DNA of 49,097 nucleotides from an uncultured Pelagibacteraceae bacterium (GTDB lineage: Bacteria; Pseudomonadota; Alphaproteobacteria; Pelagibacterales; Pelagibacteraceae): the NCBI GenBank assembly GCA_902597895.1, contig CACJZM010000004.1, positions 1 to 49,097 of the forward strand. Reading direction: 5' to 3'. The notes beneath the pieces were generated by a model. The model worked only from the letters and a program-made list of their open reading frames with translations, searched no databases and was not told where the DNA came from. Below, piece by piece: positions 7,838 to 49,097 of this stretch (the first letter of the stretch is position 1; the number at the start of each line of letters is the position of its first letter). A program made the position numbers and the translations under genes.

Positions 7838-8878
7838 TTAATTATTGAGTATTGTTAATAAACTTTTATATTCAGGATCATTTCTTAAATCGTAATTCTT
7901 ATCTCCATTCCACCATAATACTTTATTATTATAGGTCATTTGATTTTTAACTTTATTATATTCAAAAATAAGTTGTTTTTTTCTTTTTAATTTTGAAAAT
8001 CCAAGGTGTTTTATAATTTTATCTTTCCATAAATATCTATTTCCAACAATATTTTCATTTCTATAAAATAAAGCATCTATATAATGTGGTCCAACTAGAA
8101 ATTCGTTTTTTTGATCATTGCAATATTTATGACCAGCAACAAGGTTCCATTCTTGATTGTGTAGTACCCATTTATATGGGAGCACATGATCTACAGCTGG
8201 TGTTTCTCTAGATAATGACAAAAATTGATTGCAATAAAAACATTTATTACTTTGATAAGGAACTAAAAATTCTCTTTGCTTTGTTAAATCAACTCTTTTT
8301 TCAATATGTTTAAGGCTTTGTAAATATATTTTTCTTTTATCATTAGTGAACCTAAAATCTTCGTCTGTATTATGTTTAATTAGATAATTACCTTCAAGAG
8401 TAGTTTGTTTAATTTTTGCCTGAAGTATCAGTTCATCAAATTCTAAACTAGAAATTTTAAAGAAAGTATCTTTTAAAATTAATTTTTTTCCAAAATCAAC
8501 TACTTCAAAAAAATAATTTTTAAAAGTTCTATTATCTGTACCAAAACTGTGAAAGCGTTTTAAAACATCATTAAATCCATCTTTTCCAATAATATGTAAG
8601 GCTTCATCTCTTGAAATTTTCTCTGCATCTAAAAGATCAAATACACGCTCCTGAACTGTTTGCCTGTGAATAAATCCTTGTTGTGGTTTTCTGTCTTTTT
8701 GAAATCTCTTTTCATAAATCCTTAGATATGAGTCAGATAAATCATAGTACCAGTCAATTGATGATTTAGAATTTTTATAAAATTTTTCAAATGATTGGAA
8801 TAGAGCAGGTTTGTGTGTACCAGAGTTTAGGCCATGCAATAAAATTGCATTAATAATTTCATAATTTGAAAACTTCAT
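7838..8878 (-). CDS. HNH endonuclease-domain protein
   Basis: The 346-residue protein carries a zinc-type HNH nuclease core at about 213-254: C213-x2-C216, D230-H231, N245, then H250-x2-C253-N254. The first 200 residues are helical and match nothing I recognise, and a 90-residue tail follows the nuclease core. It is the second-last gene of the chain that starts with the Cys/Met enzyme and pab genes, 11 bases after pabC, and the HIT gene follows after one base. Possible roles are a restriction or conflict nuclease, or a DNA/RNA processing enzyme. I see no methylase, helicase or toxin-antitoxin partner other than the HIT gene. Confidence 0.88.
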   Translation of the reverse strand: MKFSNYEIINAILLHGLNSGTHKPALFQSFEKFYKNSKSSIDWYYDLSDSYLRIYEKRFQKDRKPQQGFIHRQTVQERVFDLLDAEKISRDEALHIIGKDGFNDVLKRFHSFGTDNRTFKNYFFEVVDFGKKLILKDTFFKISSLEFDELILQAKIKQTTLEGNYLIKHNTDEDFRFTNDKRKIYLQSLKHIEKRVDLTKQREFLVPYQSNKCFYCNQFLSLSRETPAVDHVLPYKWVLHNQEWNLVAGHKYCNDQKNEFLVGPHYIDALFYRNENIVGNRYLWKDKIIKHLGFSKLKRKKQLIFEYNKVKNQMTYNNKVLWWNGDKNYDLRNDPEYKSLLTILNN

Positions 8879-40258: not shown

Positions 40259-40725
40259 TCATTTCTTAAAACTGGAAAAACTGGATTAGATTTTTGAAAA
40301 ATTTTTTGATATTCCTGCTTAATACATTTATCAGAAATGTATTTGATATTTGCGTTTTCTGAAATATTTTGAGCTTCATCATTATGGATTCCGTATTGTA
40401 ACCATAAAGCTTTCGGAGATAATCTAATAGCTTTATTAGCATATATTATTGCTTCTTTTGAAGGTCTAAATACGTCAACAATATCAACTGGAGAGTCAAT
40501 ATCATCCAAATCTTCAAGAACTTTTTCTCCATTAATGATTTCTCCTTTTGCAAAAGGGTTAATCGGTATTACTTTGTACCCAAAATTTTGCATATATTTC
40601 ATTACTACATTAGCTGGTTTTCTTTTAATGTTTTTTGGATCTTCTTTTTTTTTTTCTGAACTAACGCCTATCATGGCAATAGTTTTAGACTCTTCTAAAA
40701 TTTTTTTGATTTCTTCTGTATTCAT
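40255..40725 (-). CDS. CoA-binding domain protein (YccU type)
   Basis: The 156-residue Rossmann protein of the CoA-binding/succinyl-CoA synthetase alpha N-terminal fold. IAMIGVSSEKKK near 17-28 is the nucleotide loop. YKVIPINPFAKGEIINGEKV follows, then VDIVDVFRPSKEA and LWLQYGIHNDEA near 109-120. YccU homologues bind CoA, with no proven activity. It overlaps the ECHDC3-like gene by 4 bases, so a shared acyl-CoA link is possible. Confidence 0.87.
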   Translation of the reverse strand: MNTEEIKKILEESKTIAMIGVSSEKKKEDPKNIKRKPANVVMKYMQNFGYKVIPINPFAKGEIINGEKVLEDLDDIDSPVDIVDVFRPSKEAIIYANKAIRLSPKALWLQYGIHNDEAQNISENANIKYISDKCIKQEYQKIFQKSNPVFPVLRNE

Positions 40726-41495
40726 TTATTTTTCCATTTAGGTTTTCTTTTTTCAATAAATGCAGAGATACCCTCATGAGCATCCTTGGCCATCATATTT
40801 AAAGTCATCATTCTGCTTGTATATGAGTATGCTTTTTTTAAAGGCATTTCTAATTGTTTATAAAATGCTTGCTTACCAATTTTAATTGTTAAATTTGACT
40901 TTGAGGCAATATTTTTTGCTAACTTTATAACCTCTTTTTCTAATCTTTTTTTAGGATAAAAATCATTTATTAAACCAATCTCCTTAGCAACCTTCGCTTT
41001 TATAGGTTCTCCTGTTAAAAGCATCTTCATCATTCTTTTTCTATTTACCTTTCTACTAACAGCAACCATAGGTGTGCTACAAAAAAGTCCAATATTTACA
41101 CCTGGTGTAGCAAACGTTGCATCTTTGGAGCTATAAGCTAAATCACAACTTGCAACTAGTTGACATCCTGCTGCATAAGCGGCTCCATGAACTTTTGCTA
41201 TAACTGGTTTTCTTCCTTCAACAATTTGTAACATTAGTCTTGAACAAAGATTAAATAGTTTAAGATATTTAGATCTAATTTTTAATGACTTAACCTCTTT
41301 TAAGTTATGACCAGCGCTAAATCCTTTTCCGGAACCCTCAAGAATTATTACTTTTGTTGAATTGTCTCTATCAAGTTTCTTAAAAGTTTTTATAAGTAAA
41401 TTTAAAGTTAAATTTGATAATGAATTATATGTTTTTGGATCATTAATAATTATTTTTTTAATACCTGACCCTAAATTTTTTATTATAACACTCAT
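40722..41495 (-). CDS. Enoyl-CoA hydratase/isomerase family protein, ECHDC3-like
   Basis: The 257-residue crotonase-fold protein. The oxyanion-hole region is GKGFSAGHNLKEV (near 56-68) and AAYAAGCQLVASCDLAYSS (near 107-125). The segment ATPGVNIGLFCSTPMVAVSR is characteristic of the ECHDC3 branch. The usual catalytic glutamates of hydratases are not obvious, so its activity is unclear. The gene follows the 2OG-oxygenase by 3 bases. The substrate is unknown. Confidence 0.88.
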   Translation of the reverse strand: MSVIIKNLGSGIKKIIINDPKTYNSLSNLTLNLLIKTFKKLDRDNSTKVIILEGSGKGFSAGHNLKEVKSLKIRSKYLKLFNLCSRLMLQIVEGRKPVIAKVHGAAYAAGCQLVASCDLAYSSKDATFATPGVNIGLFCSTPMVAVSRKVNRKRMMKMLLTGEPIKAKVAKEIGLINDFYPKKRLEKEVIKLAKNIASKSNLTIKIGKQAFYKQLEMPLKKAYSYTSRMMTLNMMAKDAHEGISAFIEKRKPKWKNK

Positions 41496-41498
41496 TGA

Positions 41499-42350
41499 TT
41501 AATCAGCTAAACCGTCAGATCTCGCCATGTTTCTTTCTAAATGGATAGGTAAAACTTTACCATAGATAGCTTTTGAATGTTCAGGCGTATTTACTCTCCA
41601 AGGATCTAGCACGTATGCAGGAATACACATGTATCTAGATTTTTGGCCCTCTATTTTTGTTACCCTGTGCAAAGTAAATCTGCCTTTAAATATTTGCAAA
41701 TCGCCTGGTTCAAGTTGTAGCTGTTTAACTCTTGTTCTATCTCCCTCTAATACTTTTTTTACTTCATCAAAATTCTCATTTCCTGGCTCTCTAATGTTTG
41801 GGCAATATTCAAATATTCCGCCTTTTTCTGGCTTTTGTATCATTAAACTCAATGTGAATTCACAACTATCAAAATGCCAAGGGAGTATTCCTTCTGGCTT
41901 CATAACATTGTAAGCATGACACGCCAAAGGATCAGCCCATCTATAAATAGGTGAAATCCCAAGACACTTTGAAACAAACTTTAATAATTCATCTGTCTCA
42001 TATAAATATTTCATTTCAGAGTCTTTTGGAAAACAATCGGAATTTAAATAGCCATTATATCGTTTCATAAAAGATCTTTTTGGATGATCTTTTGGTAAAG
42101 ATGGATCATCTTTAGCGTATAAATATGCGTTTATACTTTCTTTAGACATATAAACTTTATCAAGTTGCTTATCTAATTCTTTATTCATGATTTCTAATGA
42201 TTTGGGTAAAATAAAATTTTTAATCGTAGAACAACTATATTTGTCTAATTCTTTTTTACATCTAAGAATTAGGTTTTTAATAATTGGAGAGTCTAAATCA
42301 TTTATTGGATATTTTTCTAAATCTACAATAGATTTAAGTCTTTCATTCAC
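41499..42350 (-). CDS. 2-oxoglutarate/Fe(II)-dependent oxygenase-like protein
   Basis: The 283-residue protein has a jelly-roll oxygenase core in the second half. The iron triad is H-x-D in LPWHFDSCEF (near 175-184) and a distal His in FTLHRVTKIEG (near 235). An Arg after it (KSRYMCIPAYV) could bind 2-oxoglutarate. The Asp ligand is present, so it should be a hydroxylase or demethylase rather than a halogenase. It overlaps the nucleotidyltransferase gene by 4 bases. The substrate is unknown; a free amino acid or osmolyte is likely. Confidence 0.8.
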   Translation of the reverse strand: MNERLKSIVDLEKYPINDLDSPIIKNLILRCKKELDKYSCSTIKNFILPKSLEIMNKELDKQLDKVYMSKESINAYLYAKDDPSLPKDHPKRSFMKRYNGYLNSDCFPKDSEMKYLYETDELLKFVSKCLGISPIYRWADPLACHAYNVMKPEGILPWHFDSCEFTLSLMIQKPEKGGIFEYCPNIREPGNENFDEVKKVLEGDRTRVKQLQLEPGDLQIFKGRFTLHRVTKIEGQKSRYMCIPAYVLDPWRVNTPEHSKAIYGKVLPIHLERNMARSDGLAD

Positions 42351-42721
42351 TTTAATTCGCCATCCTCTCGCATCTTAGCTCTAATTTTTGTAGCTGATAT
42401 TTTTTGAATCTCTTCTGATAAAACAATCTCTTCAATTTTATAACCCACGCCTCTTCCATAACATATATTTGTTATATTCGGTACCAACATTACCTGAAAT
42501 CTACCTTCAAATTCAGGGTTAAGTCTTTCTTCAATTTTTTTTTTTACAGTTTCAAAATCAAATGGATTATCGTCTACTCCTTGTACATCTCTTATCTGAA
42601 TACAAACTTGTCCAGTTTTTTTTATAATTTCTTTAAATAAGTTGTAATGACCATCATGAAATGGTTGCCATCTTCCAAGCATTTGAGCTGTTGGCTTTTT
42701 GTTATCCCATTTATAAGTCAT
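42347..42721 (-). CDS. Small nucleotidyltransferase (HxGH/NadM-like)
   Basis: The 124-residue protein has the nucleotidylyltransferase motif LGRWQPFHDGH (H22-x-x-H25) and the second motif ISATKIRAKM near 108-117, like ISSTxxR of this superfamily. Closest in style are NMN adenylyltransferases of the NadM/NadR type (GRFQPxHxGH), but its role need not be in NAD synthesis. It overlaps a small kinase gene by 4 bases, suggesting a two-step activation: phosphorylation of a small molecule, then transfer of a nucleotide. Confidence 0.82.
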   Translation of the reverse strand: MTYKWDNKKPTAQMLGRWQPFHDGHYNLFKEIIKKTGQVCIQIRDVQGVDDNPFDFETVKKKIEERLNPEFEGRFQVMLVPNITNICYGRGVGYKIEEIVLSEEIQKISATKIRAKMREDGELK

Positions 42722-43128
42722 TTTTTAATATCCTCTAAAATTTTTGGTACCCAAGTCTTAGCATCTTGAGTGGTAACATGAAAATTATATTTTTCCGGTT
42801 TTATAAACATTAGATTGGTATCTTCAAATCTTCCTTTTTTAATTGTATCTACCCATATTATATAATCTGCAGGGAATAACTCTCTAGCCTCTGGTGTCGG
42901 GCATATAAAATCAGCTACTACATAATTACCTTCATCTTTTAGCTTTAATGCGTAATTAGCCATTCTTATTGATTGTCTTTTTCTTCCTTCTTCAGAAAAA
43001 TCCCAATCATTTGCAGCTTTTCTTACTTCATCTGCATTGAGTCTTTTTGCATTTAATTTTGGAGCAAGTTCATTTGCTAAAGTTGTTTTACCTGCTCCAG
43101 GCAATCCCATAACTAAAATTATTTTCAT
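42718..43128 (-). CDS. Small P-loop kinase related to APS kinase
   Basis: The 136-residue protein has Walker A GLPGAGKTT (residues 8-16). LNADEVRKAANDWDFSEEGR (near 31-50) and a FICPTPEAREL segment (near 84-94) resemble the APS-binding region of CysC. It is much shorter than CysC (about 200 residues) and lacks several lid residues, so the acceptor may not be APS. Its partner is the nucleotidyltransferase downstream (4-base overlap). Upstream it overlaps the DddP-like gene by one base. Confidence 0.8.
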   Translation of the reverse strand: MKIILVMGLPGAGKTTLANELAPKLNAKRLNADEVRKAANDWDFSEEGRKRQSIRMANYALKLKDEGNYVVADFICPTPEARELFPADYIIWVDTIKKGRFEDTNLMFIKPEKYNFHVTTQDAKTWVPKILEDIKK

Positions 43129-44363
43129 TAAATATCTTCTAACGGATGATGGGACATAAGTTCAAGTCCATTTTCACCAACTAAATATTGCTGTTCTAAT
43201 TTAACTCCCTCTTTTCCTCCTACTTTTCCAATGTAACTTTCAAGAGTAATTGTCATATTCTTTTCAAAACAGCCATTTCTTTGACCTCCATCTGTTGGGT
43301 ATCTAATTGCAGGCCACTCATCACACATACCTATTCCGTGCAACATAACTGAGTATCTATTCCCATAATACTCATCAGGTAATATCCATGACTTTTCTGT
43401 AAACTCTATAAAAGACATACCAGGTTTTATTAACCTGTAATTATGATTTATTTGATCTACAGCCATATGATATAATTTTTTTTGTTCATCATTAAATTTA
43501 TTTCCCACAACAAAAGCTCTTGAAATATCAGCGCAGTATCCATATGGGCCAACCATATCTGTATCAAAAGAAACAATTTCACCACTTTGAATTATTTTAT
43601 TACTACTTTCTTGCATCCATGGATTAGTTCTTTCACCTGATGATAATATTCGACATTCTATCCATTCACCACCATGCTCAATATTAGTTTTATGTAAAAT
43701 TGACCAAAGTTCATCTTCGGTCATTCCAGCTTTTAATTCATTTCGCATTCTAGCAACTCCAATTTCAGCTACTTCAACGGCTGCTTTCATACATTTTAAT
43801 TCTTCTGCAGATTTTATAACTCTTGCTTGTTCAAGAATTAATTTCGCATCAACTACATCGATGCTGGCTTTATTTAAAGCTGTTACTGCTGGTCCGTTTA
43901 TTACATCAATTGCTACTTTTTTACTTTTAAAAAAAGATTTTGATAAATCTTCAATTTCATTAATCCATTTTTTCAATTGCACACTTGCTTGATCGCCATT
44001 GCTGAAATAATCCCAAGTTATCGCTGGCCTTATTTCATTAATTAAATTTAGATGACTAGAGAATACCTCGCAATTAAAATACTCATATAAAATTACTGGT
44101 CCTTCTACTGGTATAAAACAATATCTTGTTAAGTTGTGCATGTTATAAACACTCATATTAACAGTATCTAATGCATAGCGAACATTTACCGGATCAAATA
44201 ATATGCACGCTTCAAGATTATTTTTTTTTAATTCTGATTTAACTCTGTCTAGTCTATAAGATCTTAGCTTATCAAAATTAATTTCATCTTCTTTTAGTCT
44301 TTTTTTAGTAATAAAATTTGGCTTTACTTTTAAATCTGGTGATATTTTTCTATTAATTTTCAT
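43128..44363 (-). CDS. DddP-like M24-family metalloenzyme (possible DMSP lyase)
   Basis: The 411-residue protein belongs to the M24/creatinase fold. Beyond the fold it follows DMSP lyase DddP in several places: ILFDPVNVRYALDT near 54-67, EHGGEWIECRILSSGER, SFDTDMVGPYGYCADIS and MLHGIGMCDEWP. Metal ligands D267, D279, H342, E375 and E390 keep the family spacing, and D348, six residues after H342, matches the proposed catalytic Asp of DddP. I chose ATG 44363 (ATGA overlap with the Rieske gene); 44387 would add eight residues. DddP paralogues with other substrates exist, so activity is unproven. Confidence 0.82.
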   Translation of the reverse strand: MKINRKISPDLKVKPNFITKKRLKEDEINFDKLRSYRLDRVKSELKKNNLEACILFDPVNVRYALDTVNMSVYNMHNLTRYCFIPVEGPVILYEYFNCEVFSSHLNLINEIRPAITWDYFSNGDQASVQLKKWINEIEDLSKSFFKSKKVAIDVINGPAVTALNKASIDVVDAKLILEQARVIKSAEELKCMKAAVEVAEIGVARMRNELKAGMTEDELWSILHKTNIEHGGEWIECRILSSGERTNPWMQESSNKIIQSGEIVSFDTDMVGPYGYCADISRAFVVGNKFNDEQKKLYHMAVDQINHNYRLIKPGMSFIEFTEKSWILPDEYYGNRYSVMLHGIGMCDEWPAIRYPTDGGQRNGCFEKNMTITLESYIGKVGGKEGVKLEQQYLVGENGLELMSHHPLEDI

Positions 44364-45538
44364 TGAACTATATTTGTTGCTACCCACTTATGAAAATGAT
44401 GAGTTGGATTATCCATCTTTGGGGAAAAATTACCTCCATTATATGCTGGAGAATTTCTTCCTATTTGCATTCTTTGAATAATATCTACATCTTCTTTTTG
44501 TATATCTTCCCATTGTTTATGATTTTGTTCTCTTAAAGATTTAAATTTTTTTGAATTAGCAGCTTCATCCCCAACATAATATATTTCCATATGTTCAAGC
44601 GTATACTCGTGATTAATTGGTTCTAGCCAATAAGCATAGTAATGGTCTTTATGTATACCTAGCATAACATTAGGAAATAGTGCTACATATTCAGCTATAT
44701 TTTCCTTATCTTTAGGCCAGCTAGGAAAACATGGAAATTTTTTATTACCTTTAAATATTGGATTGTACACAACGGTGCCTTGGCCTGCAAAACGATTTGG
44801 CAAACCTTGAATGTGATAGTGGTCTTCAAGTTTTGAATAAGAATTTAATCCTGGATGAACCCATGGTAAATGATAACTTTCACAATAATTTTCAATAGCA
44901 AATTTCCAATTGCATTTTGCATCTAATTTAAAATAACCATAATCATCAGCATGATAAATTAAATCTCTATCTTTAATTGGCCAAAATTGTTCCCATCTTT
45001 CGCTCAAAGGTTTAATATAATTTTCAAATGAAATTTCATTATTATTTATATTTATCATTATTAAATCTAACCAAATGTATGATCTAATTTCTTTTAAATT
45101 ACTTCTTGATTTTTCAAAATCAGGACTTTGATGAATATTCATTCCACCTATATGTGGTGTTGCTATTAATTCCCCATCTAAATTATATGACCATGAATGA
45201 TAAGGACACCTAATAACATTTTTAATTTTTCCAGGCTCTCTAACTAATTTAACTCCTCGGTGGCTACAAATATTGTGGAAAACTTTAATTTGATTATTTT
45301 TAGTTCTAACAATTAATATAGGCATTCCAAGAAGATCAATTGGCCTAGCATCACCAATATTTGATAAAGAACTTGCTACACCAATTACAATCCATTTATC
45401 TTCAAATAACTTTTTTCTCTCAATTAATGTATATTCTTTACTTGTATAACATTCGTTTGGAAGTCCGTTTGCCTCGCTGATTGGTTTGTTTACAATATCT
45501 AGTTTTTGTTTATCTATAATATTATAAATATCTGACAT
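44360..45538 (-). CDS. Rieske non-haem iron oxygenase, alpha subunit (GbcA-like)
   Basis: The 392-residue oxygenase has a Rieske 2Fe-2S site (C91-S-H93 and C111-x-x-H114) in the N-terminal third and a mononuclear iron site in the rest (ENYCESYHLPWVHP, with H223 and H228). The closest type is glycine betaine monooxygenase GbcA and related quaternary ammonium oxygenases (CPYHSWSYNLDG). No reductase partner gene is in the window. The setting between a methyltransferase and a DddP-like gene, with a DMGDH-like enzyme upstream, suggests demethylation of a quaternary amine. Confidence 0.85.
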   Translation of the reverse strand: MSDIYNIIDKQKLDIVNKPISEANGLPNECYTSKEYTLIERKKLFEDKWIVIGVASSLSNIGDARPIDLLGMPILIVRTKNNQIKVFHNICSHRGVKLVREPGKIKNVIRCPYHSWSYNLDGELIATPHIGGMNIHQSPDFEKSRSNLKEIRSYIWLDLIMININNNEISFENYIKPLSERWEQFWPIKDRDLIYHADDYGYFKLDAKCNWKFAIENYCESYHLPWVHPGLNSYSKLEDHYHIQGLPNRFAGQGTVVYNPIFKGNKKFPCFPSWPKDKENIAEYVALFPNVMLGIHKDHYYAYWLEPINHEYTLEHMEIYYVGDEAANSKKFKSLREQNHKQWEDIQKEDVDIIQRMQIGRNSPAYNGGNFSPKMDNPTHHFHKWVATNIVQ

Positions 45539-48576: not shown

Positions 48577-49097
48577 TTAATATTTTATTTCCTTATTTAC
48601 TTTTTTTAAAGAAGCTTCTGTTCCATGATGGAAATGCTTACTCATATCAGGCATATACTTAATAGAAATTGGTTTTTTTCCAACTGCTACTGACATCTCT
48701 CTAACATGGTGCGCCTCTGCACCACAACAAATGCCTATAAAATGAATTTTTTCTTTTAAACAATCTTTAGCAAATTCAGCCATTTCAAATCTATTACAGT
48801 ATAGATTGTCTAATGCGACTGGAAATGCATTTCCTCCTGGTATACAATCACATCCATGATCTGTTTGATTTAAAAATCCTGGCTCTTCTTTAGTGGTCCT
48901 ATAAGGAACTGGCAAACCAGCTACATGACAAGATACATTATTTCTGATTTCCTTGAGTAAATGCATTGTCATTTCTGGACCTCTATAACAATTAAGTCCA
49001 ACAACATCTGCTCCTAGATCTTCAACAATTTTACAAGCTTCTGCAGCAGAATATCCATCTCTTGTTTTGTCTCCTCTAGGAATTGCATAATTTGCAA
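48577..49097 (-). CDS. bhmT: Betaine-homocysteine methyltransferase-like protein, C-terminal part
   Basis: The frame is open to the window edge, so the N terminus lies outside. Zinc-binding cysteines of the homocysteine methyltransferase fold are visible: DVVGLNCYRG and, further on, FIGICCGAEAHH. PGGNAFPVALDN and the tail KYMPDMSKHFHHG are consistent with BHMT. BHMT moves a methyl group from glycine betaine to homocysteine, making methionine and dimethylglycine. The DMGDH-like gene follows without a gap. The in-frame ATG at 48972 is internal to the domain and is not the start. Confidence 0.85.
   Translation of the reverse strand, partial: ANYAIPRGDKTRDGYSAAEACKIVEDLGADVVGLNCYRGPEMTMHLLKEIRNNVSCHVAGLPVPYRTTKEEPGFLNQTDHGCDCIPGGNAFPVALDNLYCNRFEMAEFAKDCLKEKIHFIGICCGAEAHHVREMSVAVGKKPISIKYMPDMSKHFHHGTEASLKKVNKEIKY

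Follow-up and report, generated by a model that had tools for sequence, protein, structure and literature searches.

A kinase and a small nucleotidyltransferase of SAR11 bacteria, viruses and plasmids as a proposed compact sulfate-activating pair

The DNA analysed here (the window) is a stretch of 49,097 nucleotides, contig C4 (CACJZM010000004.1) of an uncultured Pelagibacteraceae (SAR11) genome of about 1.0 Mb and 83% completeness (G000; GCA_902597895.1). It carries three coupled genes encoding a short P-loop kinase resembling adenosine 5′-phosphosulfate (APS) kinases, an HxGH nucleotidyltransferase (NT) and an Fe(II)/2-oxoglutarate (2OG) oxygenase (Table 1). The kinase and NT genes overlap by exactly four bases, as do the NT and oxygenase genes, and the end of the M24 gene upstream has one base in common with the kinase start (TAATG). 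A preliminary description of this DNA had named the overlaps and the three protein families, and both points were borne out, the overlaps by the coordinates and the families by the PF01583 match of the kinase, the GRWQPFHDGH motif of the NT and, in the oxygenase, a PF23169 match together with an HxD...H motif. The subject of this report is the kinase-NT pair, which we propose to be a compact device for forming 3′-phosphoadenosine 5′-phosphosulfate (PAPS).

The window kinase has the P-loop GLPGAGKT and matches the Pfam family APS_kinase (PF01583) at 6.1e-11 and 43 bits, above the gathering score of 21.1, while staying below the cut-off of the NCBIfam apsK equivalog TIGR00455 (35.4 bits vs. 138.7). 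A PDB profile search with the kinase profile returned APS kinases (1.4e-12). For the structural comparison a fused viral kinase-NT homologue (L108) was modelled with a mean predicted local distance difference test score (pLDDT) of 92.9; the fold search covered its residues 1-141, which are the kinase half. Against APS kinases 139 residues aligned with a Z-score of about 18.5 and a root-mean-square deviation of about 2. The top 30 PDB rows (Z 16.1-18.6) were all entries for APS kinases or for bifunctional proteins with an APS kinase, and gluconate kinase came next (Z 15.4). Both the kinase and the NT match phrog_10255, a fused phage protein annotated as 'kinase'.

The NT showed a different ancestry from that of the known ATP sulfurylases. 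The window protein gave a CTP_transf_like match of 5e-4, slightly below the Pfam cut-off. Aligned with hhalign, the NT profile scored 99.8% (E 1.9e-29) against four proteins of the nicotinamide mononucleotide (NMN) adenylyltransferase (NMNAT) type vs. 54% against ATP sulfurylase, and the closest solved relative was the NMN adenylyltransferase MJ0541 (8.2e-10). Even so, the NT is far below the NCBIfam cut-offs for NMNATs (28.2 vs. 127 and 25.2 vs. 181.2), and the stretch that NMNATs have before ISxTxxR is missing from it. Four motifs, GRxQPxHxGH, NP, YGRxVGY and ISxTxxR, are near-invariant in a 250-row alignment whose count takes in about five weak NMNAT-type rows, true conservation being slightly higher. 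The ATP-sulfurylase (Sat) motifs QxRNxxHxxH and GRDHAG, present in four Sat proteins of SAR11 and the family f108 described below, are absent from the NT, which has GRxQPxHxGH and YGRxVGY instead. In a tree used for this separation alone, being built from a short alignment with many unresolved forks, the NT rows stood apart from the weak NMNAT-type rows with support of 99/90. By these comparisons the NT descends from NMN adenylyltransferases and is outside the ATP-sulfurylase family; it would have arisen from an NMN adenylyltransferase that lost the stretch before ISxTxxR.

Kinase and NT are the constant part of the locus. Among the best 80 of 545 matching SAR11 loci, in which the NT is present by selection, a kinase was found in 71 and a 2OG gene in 28, the other 52 lacking the latter; where present, the 2OG gene lies directly behind the NT. 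An enoyl-CoA hydratase gene is a nearly constant neighbour (79/80) and an M24 gene a variable one (27/80). With the kinase in 71 of these loci and the 2OG gene in only 28, it is kinase and NT that form the unit, and the 2OG gene is a variable third gene, an optional partner that comes and goes. Viral loci were picked for matching either the kinase or the NT, the NT scan having yielded 578 confirmed stretches and 80 of these being retained. Both genes are present in 88 of the 98 viral and phage loci, fused in 29 with the kinase first. The preliminary description had treated the trio as one unit, and this holds for kinase and NT, not for the oxygenase. The NT was detected in 2/398 and 2/393 drawn genomes of Pseudomonadota (two draws) and so does not belong to the common gene stock of bacteria. 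In the window's class, 12 of 385 drawn genomes had strong NT matches (E ≤7e-28) and eight more had weak ones, which we take for NMN-adenylyltransferase-type proteins. One SAR11 genome of 99% completeness has an NT split across two frames (G663:C1:283958-284295), possibly a decaying copy.

A sulfate-reduction setting for the pair was found in f108, a small-genome alphaproteobacterial family of the same class, represented by six genomes that are 54-89% complete, so that absences are indicative only. Five of the six contain the NT, and all five have the gene order uroporphyrinogen methyltransferase/siroheme synthase (CysG), CysI, CysH, DUF2061, kinase, NT (L232, L233, L234, L259, L260); in the sixth genome a contig end falls inside CysH. 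At L259 the NCBIfam scores are 707 bits for CysI (cut-off 457) and 248 bits for CysH (cut-off 154), and at the four other loci the genes were identified by likeness and order. Identity to the proteins of this operon is 51% for the window kinase and 71% for the window NT, whose counterpart is the last gene of the row. All five CysH proteins carry the signature CC...CxPC...ECGIH, which we take to be that of APS reductases, and the operon therefore needs a source of APS. CysD was not seen in any of the six genomes, each having one PAPS_reduct match over the cut-off, which is CysH, and ATP sulfurylase (PF01747) was present in one, within a glycan cluster of G418. Four of the five NT-bearing genomes gave neither Sat nor CysD; the NT is the only candidate seen for the supply of APS to this operon. 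DUF2061 adjoins the pair both in the f108 operons and in about ten viral loci and is fused to a CysN-type gene in Microvirga lotononidis, so that it might have a part in the activation or the uptake of sulfate.

On plasmids, nine of ten matches to the NT were haloarchaeal, and eight fell under genes annotated as cysC. In the four haloarchaeal plasmids examined, the NT forms the rear part of a fusion whose APS kinase exceeds the TIGR00455 cut-off (147.8-160.3 bits vs. 138.7), and a sulfotransferase gene lies a short way upstream of the fusion, with at most a small gene between. A YqcI/YcgG-family gene was also seen near the sulfotransferase and the cysC-NT fusion in these four plasmids (L303-L306). 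The tenth match, on a plasmid of Microvirga lotononidis, lies in a row that runs from a sulfotransferase through the kinase-NT fusion and a CysD-type gene to a CysN-type gene with a fused DUF2061. Here the kinase motifs are kept, and the NT is altered (HxSH, NR, GL and a final Q) at residues otherwise kept in 242-247 of the 250 rows. Such decay, seen in one case, would be expected if the NT were redundant with CysDN.

Sulfotransferases also accompany the pair in viruses. A member of the sulfotransferase cluster occurs within about 5 kb in 41 of the 94 viral-contig loci and immediately upstream in 30; after dereplication it is immediately upstream in 14/55, vs. 2.0 expected by random placement. 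Among 90 upstream neighbours scanned with Pfam (taken at -1 and -2 in the 55 loci, one of 91 at a locus edge being omitted), Sulfotransfer_3 and Sulfotransfer_1 were the commonest families with 14 each, followed by DUF2061 and NT5C with three each. Three phage genomes (Stenotrophomonas, Xanthomonas and Clavibacter phages) carry a Sulfotransfer_4-like gene two genes before the fused kinase-NT, the match in Xanthomonas phage AhaSv being slightly under the Pfam cut-off. In Stenotrophomonas phage Bhz60 an NADAR-type gene (L082:5559-6002) lies between the Sulfotransfer_4-like gene and the fusion.

In SAR11 itself, canonical ATP sulfurylase (PF01747) was found in 9 of 197 genomes, and Sat loci with CysC-like kinases were seen at L283, L286, L287 and L289. 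A pyruvate-kinase-like gene lies beside ATP sulfurylase in three SAR11 loci (L286, L287, L288) and in one of f108 (L258, G418), with CysC also present in L286 and L287. It lies beside the kinase-NT pair or the NT in L244, L245, L248 and L251, and among these four the protein was certified in L248 alone (PF00224 1e-54, barrel domain only). In SAR11 glycan loci the pair thus stands where other strains have ATP sulfurylase plus CysC. The NT was present in one of eight CysD-bearing SAR11 genomes vs. 117 of the 189 others (Fisher p 0.0076). One of the eight CysD genes is truncated and CysN follows CysD in seven; the NT of the lone genome having both is solitary and divergent. The window's own genome gave no match to PF01747 or PF01507.

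The f108 CysG-CysI-CysH operon, the certified APS-kinase fusion, the sulfotransferase neighbours and the replacement of Sat plus CysC argue for sulfate activation, and we consider it likely that kinase and NT are a compact PAPS-forming pair. Judged from these contexts, the NT is proposed to be a miniature ATP sulfurylase that would convert ATP and sulfate to APS and pyrophosphate. The kinase is proposed to be an APS kinase (APS + ATP → PAPS + ADP), which would phosphorylate the 3′-OH of APS and thereby pull the unfavourable first step. The PAPS formed would serve sulfotransferases in phages, haloarchaea and probably SAR11, and in f108 the APS would go to CysH-type reduction. The pair would in this way work like a PAPS synthase without the NT being a member of the ATP-sulfurylase family. 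To our knowledge two types of ATP sulfurylase have been described, Sat and CysDN; the NT, with its approximately 115-125 residues, is probably a third, NMNAT-derived type, and together with the trimmed APS kinase would make perhaps the smallest PAPS synthase. An NMNAT-like ATP sulfurylase is not named in the titles and abstract openings of the open-licence literature searched, a weak sign of novelty. The preliminary description had assumed activation of a small molecule by phosphate and then by a nucleotide; a kinase and a nucleotidyltransferase do appear to act in sequence, in the reverse order, with the nucleotide first. Its view that the genes have no known pathway is at odds with the contexts listed above. 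It had also named action in standard sulfate metabolism as the outcome that would overturn its view, and the comparative evidence points to that outcome.

Several observations weigh against this proposal. In the DGD motif Asn replaces the first Asp in 211/224 kinases, those of SAR11 included, the second Asp being kept in 224/224 rows, and a double Asp mutation in this motif of human PAPSS1 (D87, D89) abolished kinase activity (PMC11697783). The NT has no PF01747 match in the Pfam scan and no detectable membership of the ATP-sulfurylase family. In nine of the 80 SAR11 loci a kinase match is absent from the stretch covered; at four of these (L012, L019, L033, L057) less than 4.4 kb of upstream sequence was covered, and at the other five (L021, L023, L026, L060, L061; around positions 7900-8400) the NT is in its usual place with no recognisable kinase in that stretch. 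Replacement of Sat is not exclusive, as eight of the nine PF01747-bearing SAR11 genomes also have the NT, and the CysD-bearing genomes are clumped in few genera. No sulfotransferase was found in the window operon. The three Sulfotransfer_3 matches of the own genome are all on another contig, C1, one in a short protein with the start YPKSGNTW and the others in two longer proteins, seemingly TPR-containing as judged by eye. Across the 197 SAR11 genomes, sulfotransferase and NT are associated (68/50/25/54, odds ratio 2.9, p 4.5e-4). We give this statistic little weight, because the genomes are not independent and because sulfotransferase matches are present in all five NT-lacking genomes of the window's genus (G827, G844, G895, G901, G919; 95-98% complete), in which the NT, PF01747 and full-length PF01507 were all not found. 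Many T4-like viral loci, finally, have DNA-replication and sugar genes adjoining the pair and no sulfation gene nearby.

The oxygenase raises a narrower alternative that is compatible with PAPS formation by the pair. The protein matches PF23169 (HalD) with 45 bits (cut-off 26) and PDB entry 7u6h with an E of 0.019, and its residues H159-F-D161, H228 and R239 are invariant in a 17-row alignment. HalD/BesD halogenases have HxG/A in place of HxD, which leaves a site for chloride. The HxD motif, with H159-F-D161 invariant in all 17 rows, led us to reject a halogenase; because HxD is present, this HalD/BesD-related protein should oxygenate rather than halogenate. Its structure model, from 17 near-identical rows, reached a pLDDT of 40.1, too poor for fold comparison. 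In viruses other 2OG oxygenases recur directly behind the pair: among 82 of 89 downstream neighbours (seven omitted, mostly at locus ends), 2OG-FeII_Oxy_5 and 2OG-FeII_Oxy_3 were the two commonest families (12 and 10). For this reason we mention, as an idea only, a logic of hydroxylation followed by sulfation, and we would guess that the oxygenase makes a hydroxyl for later sulfation. The oxidation that the preliminary description placed alongside the two activation steps is thus echoed by oxygenases that recur beside the pair. A dedicated SAR11 trio route, in which an amino acid or osmolyte, once hydroxylated by the oxygenase, is the putative acceptor and is sulfated with PAPS from the pair, would fit the four-base overlap with the NT gene and the fixed place of the 2OG gene behind it. 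Given that 52 of the 80 SAR11 loci have no 2OG gene, that the operon is without a sulfotransferase and that the 2OG proteins of viruses fall into other Pfam families, we regard such a route as doubtful.

It is improbable that only the kinase takes part in sulfate activation, the NT adenylylating another ligand or acting as a sensor and APS coming from a canonical sulfurylase elsewhere. The NMN-adenylyltransferase descent of the NT, the presence of PF01747 in G418 and in eight NT-bearing SAR11 genomes, and the CysDN genes adjoining the pair in Microvirga would all agree with this division. It leaves the four f108 genomes with neither Sat nor CysD found, though their CysH-CysI operon needs APS, and likewise the window's own genome; and where CysDN is adjacent, the NT has decayed (one case).

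Quite unlikely, in our judgement, is a pair that phosphorylates and then nucleotidylates an amino alcohol, sugar or osmolyte, with the sulfation neighbours being incidental. The SAR11 locus does lie within an osmolyte operon, sugar genes are near some viral loci (clusters c7 and c11), and the kinase is without one catalytic Asp of APS kinases, but the CysI/CysH operon, the certified APS-kinase fusion, the viral and archaeal adjacency to sulfotransferases and the replacement of Sat plus CysC all speak for sulfate. Nor did the osmolyte modification or breakdown route suggested in the preliminary description find support, as no link to osmolyte genes was seen in the non-SAR11 loci examined and the 2OG gene is present in 28 of the 80 SAR11 loci. 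A NadR-like route to nicotinamide adenine dinucleotide (NAD), combining nicotinamide riboside kinase and NMN adenylyltransferase, is very improbable: MJ0541 is the closest solved relative of the NT and an NADAR-type gene adjoins the fusion in phage Bhz60, but that gene has a Sulfotransfer_4-like gene beside it, the kinase matches APS kinases and not the NadR kinase, the NT is without the NMNAT stretch before ISxTxxR, and no recurrent NAD gene was found beside the pair in the neighbourhoods examined.

As a proposed PAPS synthase, the pair most resembles human PAPSS1/2, with which it shares the domain order (APS kinase ahead of the adenylyltransferase), the two proposed reactions, an HxGH signature and the coupling to sulfotransferases. 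It differs in that the NT is outside the ATP-sulfurylase family and about one third the size of the second PAPSS domain, and in that the kinase is shorter and without one Asp; whole fusions have about 260 amino acids. With Sat (PF01747) the NT shares the HxxH nucleotidyltransferase superfamily, the proposed reaction and the context, namely glycan clusters with CysC and a pyruvate-kinase-like gene alongside, whereas it has about 120 residues vs. at least 330, GRxQPxHxGH in place of QxRNxxHxxH, no PF01747 match and a profile score of only 54%. The pair fills the operon slot that CysDN would take beside CysH, CysI, CysG and DUF2061, CysDN being of unrelated fold and having a GTPase partner. Homology to NadM (MJ0541) is clear over the first approximately 70 residues of the NT and at ISxTxxR; in contrast to NadM, the NT is shortened before ISxTxxR, has its own YGRxVGY, lacks a context of NAD genes and scores far below the NMNAT cut-offs. 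Campylobacter Cj1415, a cytidine diphosphoramidate kinase, is reportedly APS-kinase-like and said to follow a nucleotidyltransferase in acting on a ligand other than sulfate; its partner is reportedly a sugar-type nucleotidyltransferase and its setting capsule modification.

If the proposal is correct, a new enzyme type would carry out a textbook reaction and fill a gap in the sulfur maps of abundant ocean bacteria and many marine viruses. SAR11 bacteria are not known to be able to reduce sulfate, and they could nevertheless activate it for sulfation. Marine phages would bring their own sulfation kits, made up of sulfotransferase, PAPS synthase and oxygenases. The role of phage sulfotransferases has been called unclear (PMC10580990), and such orphan enzymes would find an explanation. 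A viral cysC has been assigned to the assimilatory reduction of sulfate (PMC10134843), and such annotations would need qualifying. The pair could also provide a compact enzyme for PAPS production.

The features discussed are collected in Table 1. The trio lies in an osmolyte and one-carbon operon in which Pfam and NCBIfam scans also recognised a methyltransferase and two dimethylglycine-dehydrogenase-like genes.

Table 1. Positions of the trio, its neighbours and related genes at other loci
Feature	Location	Strand	Evidence or remark
Short APS-kinase-like P-loop kinase, 136 aa	window 42718-43128	-	PF01583 match
HxGH nucleotidyltransferase (NT), 124 aa	window 42347-42721	-	GRWQPFHDGH motif, homology to NMN adenylyltransferases
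Fe(II)/2OG oxygenase, 283 aa, GTG start	window 41499-42350	-	PF23169 HalD match 1.1e-11
Enoyl-CoA hydratase/isomerase-family gene	window 40722-41495	-	NF006008 353.6 bits vs. cut-off 313
M24 peptidase-fold gene (DddP/creatinase-like), upstream of kinase	window 43128-44387	-	PF00557 2e-31
Rieske oxygenase (GbcA-like), surrounding osmolyte/one-carbon operon	window 44360-45538	-	Rieske 4e-19, Ring_hydroxyl_A 1e-41
Pyruvate-kinase-like gene	L286:6933-8279		
Pyruvate-kinase-like gene	L287:8838-10202		
Pyruvate-kinase-like gene	L288:8100-9425		
Pyruvate-kinase-like gene	L258:355-1773		
Pyruvate-kinase-like gene	L248:5530-6495		
CysN-type gene fused to DUF2061, Microvirga lotononidis	L302:8746-10335		

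Elsewhere in the window, a 131-amino-acid protein (48577-48972) matched homocysteine S-methyltransferases only marginally, at their end, and could represent a zinc-site fragment that has become detached. The operon region of some SAR11 loci includes, by eye, EgtB/EgtD-like (ergothioneine) genes and a selenium-binding methanethiol-oxidase-like gene (L015:3582-5761 and L015:9210-10562). The pyruvate-kinase-like protein is a further recurrent feature; in glycan clusters of SAR11 and f108 its gene adjoins ATP sulfurylase, CysC or the kinase-NT pair.

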